Positions 50,104-57,511 of a DNA stretch of 64,000 bases are shown here, one piece after another. The stretch comes from Candidatus Parvarchaeota archaeon. Its GTDB lineage: Archaea > Nanobdellota > Nanobdellia > WJKC01. A program made the translations under genes and the position numbers. The notes under the pieces were generated by a model. It saw nothing but the letters and a program-made list of their open reading frames with translations. It was not told the origin of the DNA and made no database searches. Numbering within the stretch: position 1 is the stretch's first letter; each line of letters begins with the position of its first letter. The stretch is from positions 1 to 64,000 of the forward strand of contig JAUWZX010000002.1 in NCBI GenBank assembly GCA_030615175.1, written 5' to 3'.

Positions 50104-50412
50104 TTACTTTAAATCTTTTGTCAAGGCAGCCATTAACTCTTCTTTATCCTGAATACCAATCAAGCGCTTAACTTCCTTGCCATCCTTTAAGATAATGAAT
50201 GTTGGAATGCTCATTATCTTAAACTCTGATGCTAGAGATGAATTCTTATCAGCATTAACTTTAAAGAATCCCACATCACTTAATTCCACAGACAACTCAT
50301 TAAATACTTGCTCCATAACCCTGCACGGAATACACCAGTCAGCGTAGAAGTCAAGAATAACTGTACCAGCAACAGGGTAAGCATCACCATCAATTAATTC
50401 CTCAACCATCAA
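50104..50412 (-). CDS. trxA: Thioredoxin-like protein
   Basis: A 102-aa thioredoxin. ILDFYADWCIPCRVMEQVF carries the active site WCIPC (about 26-30, instead of the usual WCGPC), and the cis-Pro loop is SIPTFIILKDG (about 68-78). Its genome neighbours, NrdG and the anaerobic ribonucleotide reductase, suggest it could supply reducing power there, though class III reductases commonly use formate or thioredoxin. 71 bp downstream of nrdG on the same strand, likely co-transcribed. Confidence 0.9.
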   Translation of the reverse strand: MMVEELIDGDAYPVAGTVILDFYADWCIPCRVMEQVFNELSVELSDVGFFKVNADKNSSLASEFKIMSIPTFIILKDGKEVKRLIGIQDKEELMAALTKDLK

Positions 50413-50483: not shown

Positions 50484-51188
50484 TTACTCTCCTCTTACTT
50501 CAACTTCCTTAAAATATTTCATTAATGCCTTCCTGAATCTTTCTAATTCACTTAATGAGTAAGTACTCCTATGCCTGTAACTCGGGTCAAGGGTTGGGAA
50601 CTCGCTTCTGAACTGCTGAAGCGCGAACTTGGAAGCGCCTTTAAGCCACTTACCAATACGTAATAAGTCAGATTTTGAATTAATACCTGGAACAACAGTT
50701 GTGCGGAACTCATAATTAACGCCTGAATCAATGATTAACTTAATGCACTTCCTAATATTACTCATGCTTAATTTAACGCCGCCAATTGCTTTTGAATAAT
50801 TCTCTGGCGAAGCCTTAACATCCATTGCAATGTAGTCAAGGAGTTTATTATCCAATAATTTTGTCAAGAGTTCAGGATTAGTGCCATTAGTGTCAAGCTT
50901 GACTTTTAAACCCATTCTTTTTACTTTCCTAATAAAAGGCAGGATTTCAGAATGGATTGTTGGCTCACCGCCAGTAATCACTAAAGCATCAATAAACTCC
51001 TTACGCGACTTTAAGAATTTAATGACTTCCTGTTCTTTAATGTCAGGGAGGATTCCCTGATTATTAATTAAGTCAGGGTTTTGACAGTAAGGACAGCGCA
51101 TATTGCACCCACCAACAAAGACTATTGATGAGATAAGTCCAGGGTAATCAATTAAACTAGTCTTCGTAAAGCCATTGAACACGAGCAT
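50484..51188 (-). CDS. nrdG: Anaerobic ribonucleotide reductase activating protein NrdG
   Basis: A 234-aa radical SAM enzyme. GGCNMRCPYC gives the Cx3Cx2C 4Fe-4S site (C28, C32, C35), and ITGGEPT (about 73-79) the SAM-binding GGE motif. It generates the glycyl radical of NrdD by abstracting a hydrogen. Start MLVFNGFTKTSLIDYPG is conserved. The stop of the small glycyl-radical gene is 6 bp upstream, so they are co-transcribed. Confidence 0.94.
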   Translation of the reverse strand: MLVFNGFTKTSLIDYPGLISSIVFVGGCNMRCPYCQNPDLINNQGILPDIKEQEVIKFLKSRKEFIDALVITGGEPTIHSEILPFIRKVKRMGLKVKLDTNGTNPELLTKLLDNKLLDYIAMDVKASPENYSKAIGGVKLSMSNIRKCIKLIIDSGVNYEFRTTVVPGINSKSDLLRIGKWLKGASKFALQQFRSEFPTLDPSYRHRSTYSLSELERFRKALMKYFKEVEVRGE

Positions 51189-51194
51189 TATAAA

Positions 51195-51380
51195 TTACTC
51201 TTCTTTTGCACAGGACTCTTGTCCTTGCGCTTCAAAACGCAGTCTTGAGGGCTTCACATCAAACTTTTTTCTATCCTTATACTCTGACTGCTTGCCTTCA
51301 TTCCAGTTCCCAAGTGGTCTTAAGTAACCTGTAATTCTTGAGAAAACCTCGCACTTCTTGCCGCAGACTTCGTCACTCAA
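51195..51380 (-). CDS. Separate glycyl-radical domain of anaerobic ribonucleotide reductase
   Basis: A 61-aa frame that holds the C-terminal end of NrdD. VCGKKCEVFSRITGYLRPLG (about 5-24, quoted without flanks) contains the radical glycine in RITGY and two cysteines of the C-terminal zinc site. The frame begins at TTG 51380, overlaps the end of the main gene by 8 bp, and is shifted +1 relative to it. GGAGGTGAG ends 4 bp before the TTG, like a ribosome-binding site, although it also encodes Gly-Gly-Glu of the upstream gene. Separate translation, a programmed frameshift, or an indel are all possible. Confidence 0.78.
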   Translation of the reverse strand: MSDEVCGKKCEVFSRITGYLRPLGNWNEGKQSEYKDRKKFDVKPSRLRFEAQGQESCAKEE

Positions 51381-53859
51381 TTAACTCACCTCCCTTACTT
51401 GCCTTAACAGGCGTTTTAACAACTTCAACATGCGCTTCCACTGCTCCTGGGAAAGGACATGTAAAGTGCTCCCCAGTAATGTAACCATGAACAGGGCATA
51501 TACTAAAAGTAGGAGTAATATTAAAATAAGGCATCTTGGTATTAAAAGCAATCTTCTTAACCAAGTTCCTGCATGATTCGGCATCAGGCAGTCTCTCGCC
51601 GAGGAATACGTGAAATATTGTGCCGCCAGTGTATAAAGTCTGAATGTCACTCTGATGCCTTAAAGCATAAACAAGGTCTTCAGTCTCGCTTACTGGCATG
51701 TGAGTGGAATTAGTAAGGTAAGGAGCGCCATCACCACCAGCAGTGTAAATATCAGGATGATATTTCTTATCAAGACGTGCAAACCTGTAAGCAGTGCTCT
51801 CAGCAGGCGTTGCCTCAAGATTATACAAGTTATTAGTCTCCACTTGGAACCGCTTAAGCATTTCACGCATAAAGATTAATGTATCAACAGCAAACTGCTT
51901 GCCCTCAGGGCTTACAATGCCCTTGCCAAGAAAGTTAACGCAGGCTTCATTCATACCGCAGACGCCAATAGTTGAGAAGTAATTCCTGAAAGAGCCTAGG
52001 TAAACCTTTGTGTAAGGCATTAAGCCACCCTCTAAATTCTTCCCAATAATCTTGCGCTTAATTTCAAGCGCGTTCCTTGCCAGCAGCATGTAACGCTTTA
52101 ACTCGTCAAAGAATCCAGCCCTGGTCTCGGACTCGTACGCAATCCTGTTAACATTAATGGTTATAACACCAATTGAACCAGTACTGTCACCCATCGCGAA
52201 TGAGTGGCCAGCCCTTCTAACTAACTCCTTCATGTTAAGGTTAAGCCTGCAGCACATTGCTTTTATTGCCTGCGGATCTAAATCACTTCCAATATAATTC
52301 TGAAAGTAAGGACTGCCATACTTAGCTGTTAACTCAAATAATAACAATGCATTCTCAGACTCCCAGTCAAAGTCCTTATAAAGATTATAAGTTGGTATTG
52401 GAAAAGTAAATACTCTTCCTTTAGCGTCGCCGTGAAGCATTATTTCAATGAATGCCTTATTAATTATGTCCATCTCCTTTTGCAACTCACCATAAGTGTA
52501 AGGCATTTTCCTGCCGCCAACAATTGCTTTTTCATCCTTCATTTCAGGAGGGCACACCCAGTCAAAAGTTAAGTTAGAGAAAGGGTACTGCGACCCCCAG
52601 CGTGATGGAATGTTAAGATTATAAATTAATTTCTGCATCTGCTGCTTAACCTTCCTGTATGATAACTTATCAGCCCTGACAAAAGGAGCTAATAAGGTGT
52701 CAACATTTGAAAAAGCCTGCGCCCCGGCAAATTCCATTTGAAGGCAGCCAATAAAGTTAACCATTTGTCCAACAACCACATCCAAGTGCTTTGCAGGATA
52801 AGTGTCAACCTTATTAGGCACGTTGCCGAAACCCATTAATAATAAATTCTTCAGCGACCATCCAGCGCAGTAACCAATGACGCCGCAGCTTAAGTCATGA
52901 ATATGAATGTAGCCCTTAACATGAGCCTCCCTGATTGATGGCATATAAATATTATTTAAAGTGTAATTAGCAATTACTTTACCTGCCGTGTGAAGCATTA
53001 ATCCTGAGAATGAGTAATCAGTGTTGCTGTTCTCCTTAACCCTCCAGTCAATCTTATTCAAGTACTCTGATATTGTATCATTAACGTCAATGAACGCATT
53101 CTTAATCTCCCTAATCTTCTTATGAGTGTCCCTGTAAAGAATGTAAGACTTAGCGGTTGTTACATGACCTGTCTCAATTAATACTTTTTCAACAGTGTCC
53201 TGTATTTCCTCAACTGAAGGAATGCCCCCATCAATATACTTTAATGAAAGCTCTGACTCAACTTTATCAGCCAGCCTCCTTGACAAGTTCTTGTCCTTTC
53301 CTCCAACTGACTCAGCAGCACCCCATATTGCCTCAACTATTTTACTCTTATTGTAAGGAACTATTCTCCCATCACGCTTCCTAATCTTCTTAGGCGGGGC
53401 TAACCTCTGGTTCTTCATCTTTGACAAGTTATCAATCTCGCGCTCAAATGACCTGATGTCGTCAAACATGTGATAAACAGAAGCAAATCTTAAGTAAGCA
53501 ATTTTATCAATGATTTTTAGTTTCTCCATTACTAACTCGCCAATCCTTGATGACTCAATTTCCAAGTCACCGCTATTCATTAATGCTAATTCAACCTCCT
53601 CGCATAATTTCTCAATCCTCTCAAGAGTGATTGGCCTCTTCTCGCATGCCTTAAGAACTCCCTTCTTTAATTTCTCCTTGTTAAACTGTTCTTTTGTTCC
53701 ATTCTTCTTTAAAATCATTAATGAAAGATTCTCAATTCGTTCATAAGTCGTGAACCTTTTATTGCATGAATTACACTCCCGTCTCCTTCTCGCAGAGTTT
53801 TCAGAATCCCTTTTATCAACTACTTTTATTTTATTACTACCACAGTAAGGACACTTCAT
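51373..53859 (-). CDS. nrdD: NrdR-NrdD fusion: anaerobic ribonucleotide reductase with repressor domain
   Basis: An 828-aa protein. Residues 1 to about 150 are a whole NrdR: zinc ribbon CPYC (3-6) and CNSC (29-32) with RRRREC and RFTTYE, then an ATP-cone (about 47-140). A second ATP-cone, typical of NrdD itself, is at about 157-250 (KIRKRDGRIVPYNKSKIVEA). The catalytic domain follows: HDLSCGVIGYCAGWSL includes the thiyl-radical Cys region, and TFSICPVHGYITGEHFTCP is the first half of the zinc site. The protein then stops (SKGGELIE) before the glycyl radical segment, which lies in the next frame. It reduces ribonucleotides without oxygen, activated by NrdG. Confidence 0.92.
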   Translation of the reverse strand: MKCPYCGSNKIKVVDKRDSENSARRRRECNSCNKRFTTYERIENLSLMILKKNGTKEQFNKEKLKKGVLKACEKRPITLERIEKLCEEVELALMNSGDLEIESSRIGELVMEKLKIIDKIAYLRFASVYHMFDDIRSFEREIDNLSKMKNQRLAPPKKIRKRDGRIVPYNKSKIVEAIWGAAESVGGKDKNLSRRLADKVESELSLKYIDGGIPSVEEIQDTVEKVLIETGHVTTAKSYILYRDTHKKIREIKNAFIDVNDTISEYLNKIDWRVKENSNTDYSFSGLMLHTAGKVIANYTLNNIYMPSIREAHVKGYIHIHDLSCGVIGYCAGWSLKNLLLMGFGNVPNKVDTYPAKHLDVVVGQMVNFIGCLQMEFAGAQAFSNVDTLLAPFVRADKLSYRKVKQQMQKLIYNLNIPSRWGSQYPFSNLTFDWVCPPEMKDEKAIVGGRKMPYTYGELQKEMDIINKAFIEIMLHGDAKGRVFTFPIPTYNLYKDFDWESENALLLFELTAKYGSPYFQNYIGSDLDPQAIKAMCCRLNLNMKELVRRAGHSFAMGDSTGSIGVITINVNRIAYESETRAGFFDELKRYMLLARNALEIKRKIIGKNLEGGLMPYTKVYLGSFRNYFSTIGVCGMNEACVNFLGKGIVSPEGKQFAVDTLIFMREMLKRFQVETNNLYNLEATPAESTAYRFARLDKKYHPDIYTAGGDGAPYLTNSTHMPVSETEDLVYALRHQSDIQTLYTGGTIFHVFLGERLPDAESCRNLVKKIAFNTKMPYFNITPTFSICPVHGYITGEHFTCPFPGAVEAHVEVVKTPVKASKGGELIE

Positions 53860-53943: not shown

Positions 53944-53959
53944 ACACAACATATGGTGG
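53944..53959. promoter_or_regulatory. NrdR-box-like site 2
   Basis: ACACAACATATGGTGG matches 13 of 16 positions of the NrdR-box consensus acaCwAtATaTwGtgt. It lies 32 bp from site 3, about three helical turns, the spacing typical of tandem NrdR sites. It falls in the predicted transcribed leader of the fusion gene. Confidence 0.6.
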
Positions 53960-53975
53960 TCTTACTTACGTGCAA

Positions 53976-53993
53976 CCACAACATATAGTTAGT
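53976..53993. promoter_or_regulatory. NrdR-box-like site 3, at the predicted transcription start
   Basis: CCACAACATATAGTTAGT matches about 12 of 16 NrdR-box positions and shares ACAACATAT with site 2. It overlaps the place where transcription would start (about 20-28 bp below the TATA box), so binding there could block the promoter. Confidence 0.6.
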
Positions 53994-54005: not shown

Positions 54006-54013
54006 TTTATAAA
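54006..54013 (-). promoter_or_regulatory. TATA box of the nrdRD operon
   Basis: TTTATAAA, read on the minus strand, with a further AT-rich stretch upstream. Expected start is near 53980-53985, at NrdR-box site 3, leaving a leader of about 120 nt before ATG 53859. This is longer than for most genes here. Confidence 0.55.
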
Positions 54014-54200: not shown

Positions 54201-54551
54201 ATGATTTTGCCTCAGGAGCTTGAAGTCTGGTACGTGTTGCCTGCTATTCGCAAGGAATTGGCAAGGAATCTCGTGGCTTTAGGCCTCAAGCAGAAGGGAG
54301 TGGCTGAAATACTTGACGTGACTGAAGCATGCATTAGTAATTACTTTAAATCAAAGAGGGCGATGGAAATCAAATTTAATAATAATATCAAATTATTAAT
54401 TCATGATTCTGCTTCAAGACTATTTAAAGGAGAATCATGCTTTATTAAGGAGGTTCAAAAGATTTGCAATGCTTTTAAAGAAGGAAAGCACTTATGCTCT
54501 TTGCATAAAAAATTTGGCAATGTGTGCGGGTGCAGGGGGTGCTTAACATGA
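54201..54551 (+). CDS. HTH regulator with C-terminal cysteine cluster (likely Fe-S responsive)
   Basis: A 116-aa protein. An XRE-like helix-turn-helix spans about 16-53 (RKELARNLVALGLKQKGVAE; VTEACISNYFKS). The C-terminal region has five cysteines, CSLHKKFGNVCGCRGC with one more at CFIKE and CNAFK, spaced like an Fe-S or metal site. Its stop overlaps the iscS start by 4 bp, so it is translationally coupled to Fe-S assembly genes. A role as a regulator of that operon is inferred from position and the cysteines. Confidence 0.7.
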   Translation: MILPQELEVWYVLPAIRKELARNLVALGLKQKGVAEILDVTEACISNYFKSKRAMEIKFNNNIKLLIHDSASRLFKGESCFIKEVQKICNAFKEGKHLCSLHKKFGNVCGCRGCLT

Positions 54552-56058: not shown

Positions 56059-56775
56059 TTAATAAGGTTTTGTTGGCAGACCCCTCTCTTCCCGCCATCT
56101 TGCCTGGTCTTTCAGGAACTCTATTGCCAATTCATATTGTTTCTCACTAATCATATTATTTTTTTCTCCAAACTTGAAAATGTATGGCAGGTAAACTAGC
56201 GGCTTAAATTCAAATCCTTCCTGATTAACCCATTCATCAAATCCTTTATTACCATAAGATACAATGCAGGTTATCTTTTTCGTCCTTAATTTAATATTTT
56301 TGTCCTCACACCATTCCTTAAAAGCATTCCAAACAATCTTACAGCTTCTTCCTGAATTTATTAAGTCCTCTGCAATAATAATATCAAGGCACTCTTTCTC
56401 TTTTGCTATTTCTTTTAATAATTCCTTATCACCTTCTATTCGCTGTCCAAGCCCATAAGCCTTTTCATCTGTTCTCACATAATAATAATGAGTTTCATTT
56501 CCTAATACCCTGCTTAAATTCTCTGCTGGACTCATGCCTGCTGTTGTTGAGCCAAGAACCACATCGTACTGCTCATTTATTACTAATTTCCTCTTCATTA
56601 ATTGCGCTATCTCTTCTTTTTCATCATCATGGCTTATTATTACTCTGCAGTCAGCGTATGTTTGTCCCTGTAATGGTTTTGCAGAGTACTCAAAGTAAGG
56701 ACCTTCCTCTGGCGCAACCATCACCGCACTTATATCTAATAATATTTCTGAAACCCTGTCCTTAATGCTTTTCAT
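56059..56775 (-). CDS. pyrE: Orotate phosphoribosyltransferase-like protein (PyrE type)
   Basis: A 238-aa phosphoribosyltransferase. IIIAEDLINSGRSCKIVWNA (split at about 140-158) is the PRPP-binding motif, and YDVVLGSTTAGMSPAENLSR (about 68-87, in two parts) resembles the family's substrate-binding loop. ATG 56775 is chosen (MKSIKDRVSEILLD); it lies 1 bp after the pyrF stop, whereas the longer frame to 56871 overlaps it. Converts orotate to OMP in pyrimidine synthesis, consistent with the pyrF neighbour. Longer than typical 180-200-aa PyrE. Confidence 0.75.
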   Translation of the reverse strand: MKSIKDRVSEILLDISAVMVAPEEGPYFEYSAKPLQGQTYADCRVIISHDDEKEEIAQLMKRKLVINEQYDVVLGSTTAGMSPAENLSRVLGNETHYYYVRTDEKAYGLGQRIEGDKELLKEIAKEKECLDIIIAEDLINSGRSCKIVWNAFKEWCEDKNIKLRTKKITCIVSYGNKGFDEWVNQEGFEFKPLVYLPYIFKFGEKNNMISEKQYELAIEFLKDQARWREERGLPTKPY

Positions 56776-56776
56776 T

Positions 56777-57511
56777 TTAAAAAACTCTCTCTTCATGCGC
56801 TGTTTTAATTGCAGCGTAAACATCTTTAATTGTTTGTATCGGATTCTTGCTTTGGTAGATTCCTCTTCCAATCACCAAATGGTCTGCTCCCTTCTCAATA
56901 GCAGTTACGGCATCTACTAAAACATTGCCTGTTTTTTGAGGACCACTGCCAGGACTAACAACATTTACTTCTCCATCAAAGATTTTCCTGTAAACCATTA
57001 ATCTCTCCGGTTTAGTTGCTGGCGCAACAATGTATTTAACCCCTAGTTCAACGCAATCCTTTGCTAATTGTTCGCACTTTTCTTTACTACTATACCTTGT
57101 TGCTCCTGGCTGCGTCATTTCTACAACAATTATGGGGATAATACCATTATTAGAGCATGCGTTTACAAAAGTTTCCAGCGTTCCAGGTTTCTCTGAATCA
57201 TCCAAGTTGCTTCCTGAACCAAGAGGAGAGCCAATATAGAATTTTGGTTTTAATTCATCAATATCTTCTACTTGTCCTTTTACAATAAAGGGCACGTCAG
57301 TTCCTCTTTTTTGAGGGTCATAACAAATTGGCAGGCTTAATTCAATATCATCAAATAATTTTCTTGAAATAATTGTTCCATAACGTTCAATAATTTTATA
57401 ACCAATCTTTAATGCAGTTATTCCCTCTTCAACACCTTCAAGTTTTGCAAAGAATTGTATTGCCTTGCCAAGATGCATATCAATTGCAGGCATTATTCCA
57501 ACTTCAACCAT
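56777..57511 (-). CDS. pyrF: Orotidine 5'-phosphate decarboxylase-like protein (PyrF type)
   Basis: A 244-aa TIM-barrel of the OMP decarboxylase superfamily. The active-site segment ICYDPQKRGTDVPF holds the Asp...Lys...Asp set with spacing D-x2-K-x3-D, a variant of the usual DxKxxD. Phosphate-binding elements include VSPGSGPQKTG (about 193-203) and GADHLVIGRGIYQ (about 213-225). One base before the pyrE-like start on the same strand, so they would carry out consecutive steps of UMP synthesis. Confidence 0.82.
   Translation of the reverse strand: MVEVGIMPAIDMHLGKAIQFFAKLEGVEEGITALKIGYKIIERYGTIISRKLFDDIELSLPICYDPQKRGTDVPFIVKGQVEDIDELKPKFYIGSPLGSGSNLDDSEKPGTLETFVNACSNNGIIPIIVVEMTQPGATRYSSKEKCEQLAKDCVELGVKYIVAPATKPERLMVYRKIFDGEVNVVSPGSGPQKTGNVLVDAVTAIEKGADHLVIGRGIYQSKNPIQTIKDVYAAIKTAHEERVF

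Follow-up and report, generated by a model that had tools for sequence, protein, structure and literature searches.

Nucleotide sensing by NrdR and class III reductases

The matching of ribonucleotide reductase activity and expression to the dNTP pools has usually been studied in systems with two separate dATP sensors, the repressor NrdR and the ATP-cone of the enzyme. The targets of NrdR are paired palindromic boxes located about three helical turns apart, and NrdR of S. coelicolor contacts the DNA via its zinc ribbons by residues R12, R26-29, R37, D15 and R17 (PMC9110341). Binding is best with a spacer of 15-17 bp between the boxes, with an optimum of 16 bp (PMC12051234). In the presence of ATP, NrdR forms a dodecamer that does not bind DNA, and the protein loaded with dATP and ATP is a DNA-binding tetramer; NrdR was also described as rare in archaea (PMC9110341). 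For the class III reductase NrdD of P. copri, dATP was found to shift the enzyme towards tetramers, with a loosened glycyl-radical domain and with substrate binding blocked (PMC11226230).

The window analysed here is a stretch of 64,000 nucleotides from a Candidatus Parvarchaeota archaeon, the genome of which is a 1.0-Mb draft of 5 contigs that is 87% complete. It contains an NrdR-NrdD fusion gene, nrdRD (Table 1), which had been pointed out in an earlier sequence-only reading. The fusion was surveyed in 56 relatives, 371 genomes of the phylum, 196 Asgard genomes and 399 Bacillota.

Table 1. Positions of nrdRD, its domains, neighbouring genes and predicted control elements in the window.
Feature	Position	Strand	Details
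Thioredoxin	50104..50412	minus	PF00085
NrdG, radical-SAM activase	50484..51188	minus	PF04055 and PF13353
Separate glycyl-radical subunit	51195..51380	minus	61 aa; TTG start; motif CEVFSRITGYLRP; PF13597 positions 526-562 only
Shine-Dalgarno sequence GGAGGTG	51387..51393	minus	6 nt ahead of the TTG of the glycyl-radical ORF; 7/7 match
nrdRD, NrdR-NrdD fusion gene	51373..53859	minus	828 aa; open frame; glycyl-radical domain absent from chain
NrdD catalytic core	51421..53034	minus	Residues 276-813; HIHDL and finger-loop MCCRL; PF13597
NrdD's own ATP-cone	53116..53388	minus	Residues 158-248; PF03477
NrdR ATP-cone	53422..53739	minus	To residue 146; PF03477 at 53458-53718; TIGR00244 residues 1-145
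NrdR zinc ribbon	53740..53859	minus	Residues 1-40; PF22811; C3, C6, C29, C32; D15, R17, R24-R27
Predicted NrdR box 2	53944..53959	minus	CCACCATATGTTGTGT; 32 bp from box 1; 16-bp spacer
Predicted NrdR box 1	53976..53991	minus	TAACTATATGTTGTGG; pair score 37/44
TATA-like element	54006..54013	minus	TTTATAAA; from sequence

A complete NrdR in front of NrdD

The sequence-only reading had described a complete NrdR in front of the ATP-cone and the catalytic core of NrdD, and both parts were recovered by profile searches. In Pfam, the zinc ribbon of NrdR scores E 6e-16 at residues 1-40, two ATP-cones are detected with E 5e-44, and residues 276-813 match the NRDD domain (E 9e-164). The NrdR model TIGR00244 matches at full length with 177.2 bits (cut-off 124.65), and PRK08270, the model for ribonucleoside triphosphate reductases, spans residues 157-813. 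The motifs C3/C6/C29/C32, RRRREC and RFTTYE are present as described, and the NrdD half carries the finger-loop cysteines and the HxHD motif of class III reductases. Among sequences with known structures, residues 1-146 match E. coli NrdR (9fvr/9fxk, E ~1e-36), and the NrdD half matches 4coi, 4u3e and 8p23. The structure of the single 828-aa chain was predicted with moderate confidence (pLDDT 80, pTM 0.65); a Foldseek search with this model retrieved the class III reductases 9d3x, 8p2c and 4coj as well as NrdR.

The fusion gene contains the only NrdR zinc ribbon found in the genome, the full-length protein used as query matches only once, and a search for the class I/II catalytic domain (PF02867) gave no match; since the genome is only 87% complete, a second NrdR or another reductase could be missing from the assembly. 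Contig C5 of the same genome encodes a free-standing ATP-cone-like protein of 96 aa with a Lys/Arg-rich tail and without a zinc ribbon (L003:1495-1785), which adjoins a GMP-synthase-like gene.

The gene order including nrdG is conserved in relatives, and the thioredoxin is a possible reductant for this NrdD. Divergent from nrdRD and just before iscS/iscU lies a gene for an HTH-like protein of 116 aa (54201-54551, plus strand; weak HTH_3 match) with a C-terminal cysteine cluster, CSLHKKFGNVCGCRGC, which possibly acts as an Fe-S-sensing regulator; in G010 (L182), a divergent iscS gene likewise lies ahead of the fusion. Overlapping genes for phosphoribosyltransferase-like and OMP-decarboxylase/HUMPS-like proteins are located at 56059-56871 and 56777-57511 on the minus strand.

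A detached glycyl-radical domain

Sensor, repressor and enzyme had been proposed to reside on one polypeptide with tandem ATP-cones. This description fits the chain with its two cones, but not the whole enzyme: the 828-aa chain, which is the sole NrdD match in the genome, stops before the radical glycine, and the remainder, with this glycine as G18, is encoded by the 61-aa ORF in another frame. As the core lacks a glycyl-radical domain, the 61-aa protein is presumably obligatory, and it would be expected to assemble with the core.

The fusions fall into two NrdD subfamilies, A, which includes nrdRD, and B. In subfamily A, the split is found in fused (nrdRD, G001 and G038) as well as in unfused genes (G229, G039, G003, L034 and L035), and subfamily B likewise contains it in both fused and unfused genes. 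The small gene of G001 has the same GGAGGTG sequence in front of an ATG start codon, and G039 is a one-contig genome. In G075, the glycyl-radical gene is located three ORFs downstream of nrdRD, which makes its protein an independent product; the intervening ORFs lie on the same strand and encode 84, 149 and 100 aa (L177:173-1212). In G017, the domain is rejoined to the chain. Sequencing frameshifts and programmed frameshifting or readthrough are ruled out as general causes by the breadth of the split, the dedicated Shine-Dalgarno sequences, several stop codons, and distances of 140-190 nt or three ORFs between the genes.

The split falls within the zinc module. In subfamily B, there is one CxxC at the end of the core and another at the start of the small protein, and in subfamily A, CPVH plus one cysteine are found on one side and CxxxC on the other. 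The natural inference is that a zinc site is shared by the core and the small protein, in agreement with the predicted structure, in which residues 786-828 are disordered. A separate radical subunit would be the first among class III reductases in the literature searched, and would allow titration, exchange or repair of the radical part with no need to make the enzyme anew.

Proposed autoregulation of the nrdRD operon

We propose, with a probability of roughly 0.7, that nrdRD encodes an autoregulatory "trigger enzyme" whose catalysis and operon transcription would both depend on the nucleotide state. The N-terminal NrdR half would sense ATP/dATP and bind the two NrdR boxes that overlap the beginning of the operon, which would comprise nrdRD, the gene for the glycyl-radical subunit and nrdG, with the thioredoxin gene following. 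The C-terminal half would act as class III reductase with the glycyl radical on the small subunit from the next ORF, activated by NrdG. At increased dATP, dATP/ATP would occupy the NrdR cone and the protein would form the DNA-binding tetramer, and dATP bound to NrdD's own cone would turn off catalysis. Since both switches are located on one chain, the activity of the enzyme and its new synthesis would stop together. The sequence itself shows that NrdR and NrdD form one chain, that a box pair is present, that the radical domain is split off and that these features are conserved; DNA binding and nucleotide response of the fusion are predicted properties.

Several observations suggest that the NrdR half is functional. 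In the alignment of the fusions, C3, C6, C29 and C32 are invariant and D15, R17 and R24-27 are present; zinc ribbon and DNA-contact residues are thus retained in every fusion aligned. The predicted operator lies 132-85 nt upstream of the nrdRD start codon, and its 16-bp spacer falls within the 15-17 bp rule. Its score was reached by none of 5000 shuffled sequences, the pair pattern has an expectation of 0.08 in 64 kb, and the only box pair with at most one mismatch in the 1.0-Mb genome is the one ahead of nrdRD. The TATA-like element would place the presumed transcription start on box 1. No riboswitch or other known RNA was detected in the leader at the gathering threshold, and a scan for sigma-70 promoters, a model ill-suited to archaea, gave matches at chance level. 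With predicted repressor sites just before its gene, the enzyme is probably in control of its own synthesis; the conserved contact residues and the optimally spaced box pair, the sole one in the genome, suggest that sensor, repressor and reductase core are apparently one chain. Upstream box pairs are likewise present at most other fusions, namely those of G001, G010 (a strong pair with a score of 40/44), G233, G222, G008, G075, G017 and L048, and at the majority of other archaeal nrdR genes.

Some points speak against autoregulation. Every chain of an NrdR tetramer would have to carry a 680-residue enzyme; the structure model, of moderate confidence, is that of one chain and does not bear on complexes, and the incomplete genome leaves room for a second NrdR or reductase. 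Moreover, box pairs are missing or weak at some fusions: no convincing consensus pair was found at those of G012, G022, G032 and G040, which belong to one family, of G026, or at G154's own gene, and G038 has only a weak pair. G026 and G040 carry a GC-richer look-alike.

A more tentative proposal goes beyond autoregulation by two linked switches and assumes that the dATP tetramer of NrdD and the NrdR tetramer are the same, so that one dATP-induced oligomer would be both inactive enzyme and DNA-bound repressor, a single switch of catalysis and transcription. The glycyl-radical domain would then be exchangeable, held by the two-chain zinc site and released by dATP; as the radical domain is detached, the loosening described for the P. 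copri enzyme could here mean release.

Alternatively, the fused NrdR might have no transcriptional role and be kept as an extra allosteric ATP-cone, as in reductases with tandem cones; between 0 and 3 cones are known in reductases (PMC9669993). In subfamily B, a degenerate cone comes after the NrdR cone, at the position where a separately encoded NrdD (L029) has a full one, and the NrdR cone seems to replace NrdD's cone; the fusions without clear boxes would also be compatible with a purely allosteric function. However, an allosteric cone would need neither the zinc ribbon nor the DNA-contact residues kept in all aligned fusions, and the genome's sole box pair is located in front of nrdRD. Furthermore, the minimal fusion of G010 (L182:2070-4343) has retained only the zinc ribbon of NrdR, which is joined straight to the single ATP-cone of NrdD, and the NrdR cone is lost.

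The strongest hint that the NrdR half of such fusions regulates by binding DNA, and does so in trans as well, comes from two members of the same genus, G154 and G075. The NrdD half of G154 no longer has finger-loop cysteines or a glycyl-radical domain. The NrdD core of G154 is only 46% identical to that of its sister G075, compared to 69% between G075 and the more distant G008, whereas the zinc ribbons of G154 and G075 are 79% and their NrdR cones 78% identical. The branch lengths for G154 and G075 are 2.27 vs 0.21 for NrdD and 0.12 vs 0.12 for NrdR. Another contig of G154 encodes a class II reductase with a box pair just upstream (L185, about 945-992; 37/44; 0 of 2000 shuffles), and in G075, a box pair lies between the fusion and the divergently oriented class I nrdAB genes. 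Judged by its sequence, the NrdD of G154 is dead, its NrdR is preserved and the class II reductase is the replacement. A repressor kept on a dead enzyme, together with the box pair at the class II gene, suggests that the NrdR half works as a regulator and makes a purely allosteric role unlikely; G154 thus represents a natural case of separation of function.

Translation across the junction

It could be argued that the fusion exists at the gene level only and that separate NrdR and NrdD are produced by proteolysis or from an internal start, the more so as nrdR and nrdD are adjacent or overlapping genes in many other relatives and share a frame, separated by a single stop codon, in G120 and G229. 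We consider this very unlikely because none of 18 fusions has an internal start with a good Shine-Dalgarno sequence near the junction, and G038, G026 and G222 have no ATG, GTG or TTG codon at all between residues 136 and 185, so that their NrdD half could not be translated on its own.

Recurrence and origins of the fusion

An unbroken fusion was found in at least 14 of the 371 sampled genomes of the phylum, in subfamily A (G000, G001, G038, G026, G222, G233 and G010) as well as in subfamily B (G008, G012, G022, G032, G075, G017 and G154). The same uninterrupted arrangement in many other genomes shows that the fusion is not due to chance or misassembly, and counters the concern that the frame might be interrupted or misassembled near residue 150. 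That the fusion, the split or both are assembly or frame artefacts of a draft genome is given next to no weight and largely refuted by the many independent genomes with uninterrupted fusions and by a split seen in both subfamilies, in a one-contig genome, with dedicated Shine-Dalgarno sequences and with as many as three ORFs between the core and the small gene.

Fusions were also found in 5 of the 196 Asgard genomes, all of type B: on the L048 contig (Heimdallarchaeota) and in G562, G573, G545 and G466. As the latter four carry fusions that are 82-83% identical, L048 is not a misbinned contig. Among the matches listed for the 399 Bacillota, there was no unbroken fusion; nrdR sometimes adjoins the reductase gene there, with stop codons in between. 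A phage origin was rejected since the phage NrdDs among the matches listed align only from residue ~157. The sequence-only reading had called NrdR mainly bacterial. In this archaeal phylum, 284 of the 371 genomes have an NrdR match, in contrast to the rarity in archaea stated in PMC9110341; the presence of NrdR as such is therefore not odd here, only the fusion is.

A further fusion of subfamily B was found among the 56 relatives in G040. It is intact except for one in-frame TGA in place of the codon for the first finger-loop cysteine (LSA*CRL; L183:3957-3965). Selenocysteine at this position is not supported because no tRNA-Sec was found above the Rfam cut-off; a sequencing error or decay is the likelier cause. 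Several NrdD frames (L159, L161-L163, L165 and L166) reach about 1035-1215 aa and carry large inserts close to the midpoint of the core, possibly inteins or other insertions.

The in-frame genes of G120 and G229 likely represent a precursor state of the fusion. In the tree of subfamily A, the fused state requires four changes and in that of subfamily B three; supported branches make at least two of them necessary in each tree, and these counts do not distinguish gain from loss. Fused NrdRs are likewise not united in the NrdR tree. Since NrdDs of two subfamilies are fused, the fusion most likely arose more than once, and indeed several times.

Comparison with known systems

The architecture is real and recurrent and has apparently not been described before: neither an NrdR-NrdD fusion nor a detached radical domain of NrdD was found in the literature searched, which did not extend to subscription journals, so that absence is not proof. 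By family, the protein is NrdR plus NrdD, and one defining feature of each is missing. With NrdR (TIGR00244; PDB 7p37, 9fvr) it shares the domain set, the zinc ligands, the DNA-contact residues, the ATP-cone and an upstream box pair with a 16-bp spacer; however, NrdR is a free-standing protein of 140-220 aa, and the 828-aa fusion carries the very reductase that is expected as its target. With class III NrdD of the PRK08270 type (PDB 8p23, 4coi, 9d3x) it has in common the ATP-cone, the NRDD core, the HxHD motif, the two finger-loop cysteines and the NrdG neighbour, but it differs in the N-terminal NrdR and in the glycyl-radical domain, which is a separate protein rather than part of the chain. 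Both dATP sensors are located on one chain in these archaea, some with two cones and G010 with a zinc ribbon wired to the enzyme's cone, and the two-cone fusions and G010 therefore offer natural constructs to learn how two cones share a signal.

Fission and fusion of reductase parts are also known from the NrdDG fusion of fungi and oomycetes (PMC3019208) and the split class II reductase NrdJab (PMC4520616), neither of which involves NrdR or a detached glycyl-radical domain. The closest likeness to the small subunit is GrcA/YfiD, the spare glycyl-radical domain of pyruvate formate-lyase, which as a small free protein supplies a larger core with the radical glycine, and spare-part proteins were speculated to exist for other glycyl radical enzymes (PMC8683613). 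The 61-aa protein is, like GrcA/YfiD, a small autonomous glycyl-radical protein, with its own start and Shine-Dalgarno sequence. However, YfiD repairs an enzyme that possesses its own glycyl-radical domain, which the core of the fusion lacks, and the split of NrdD falls inside the zinc-binding module. The trigger enzyme PutA of E. coli combines an enzyme with a DNA-binding domain and represses its own operon via a single target (PMC8249747), and the fusion would work in a similar way; a predicted operator and DNA-binding residues can be recognized in its sequence. PutA differs in fold and pathway, and the fusion joins an essential enzyme of DNA precursor synthesis to a nucleotide-sensing repressor of a known family.
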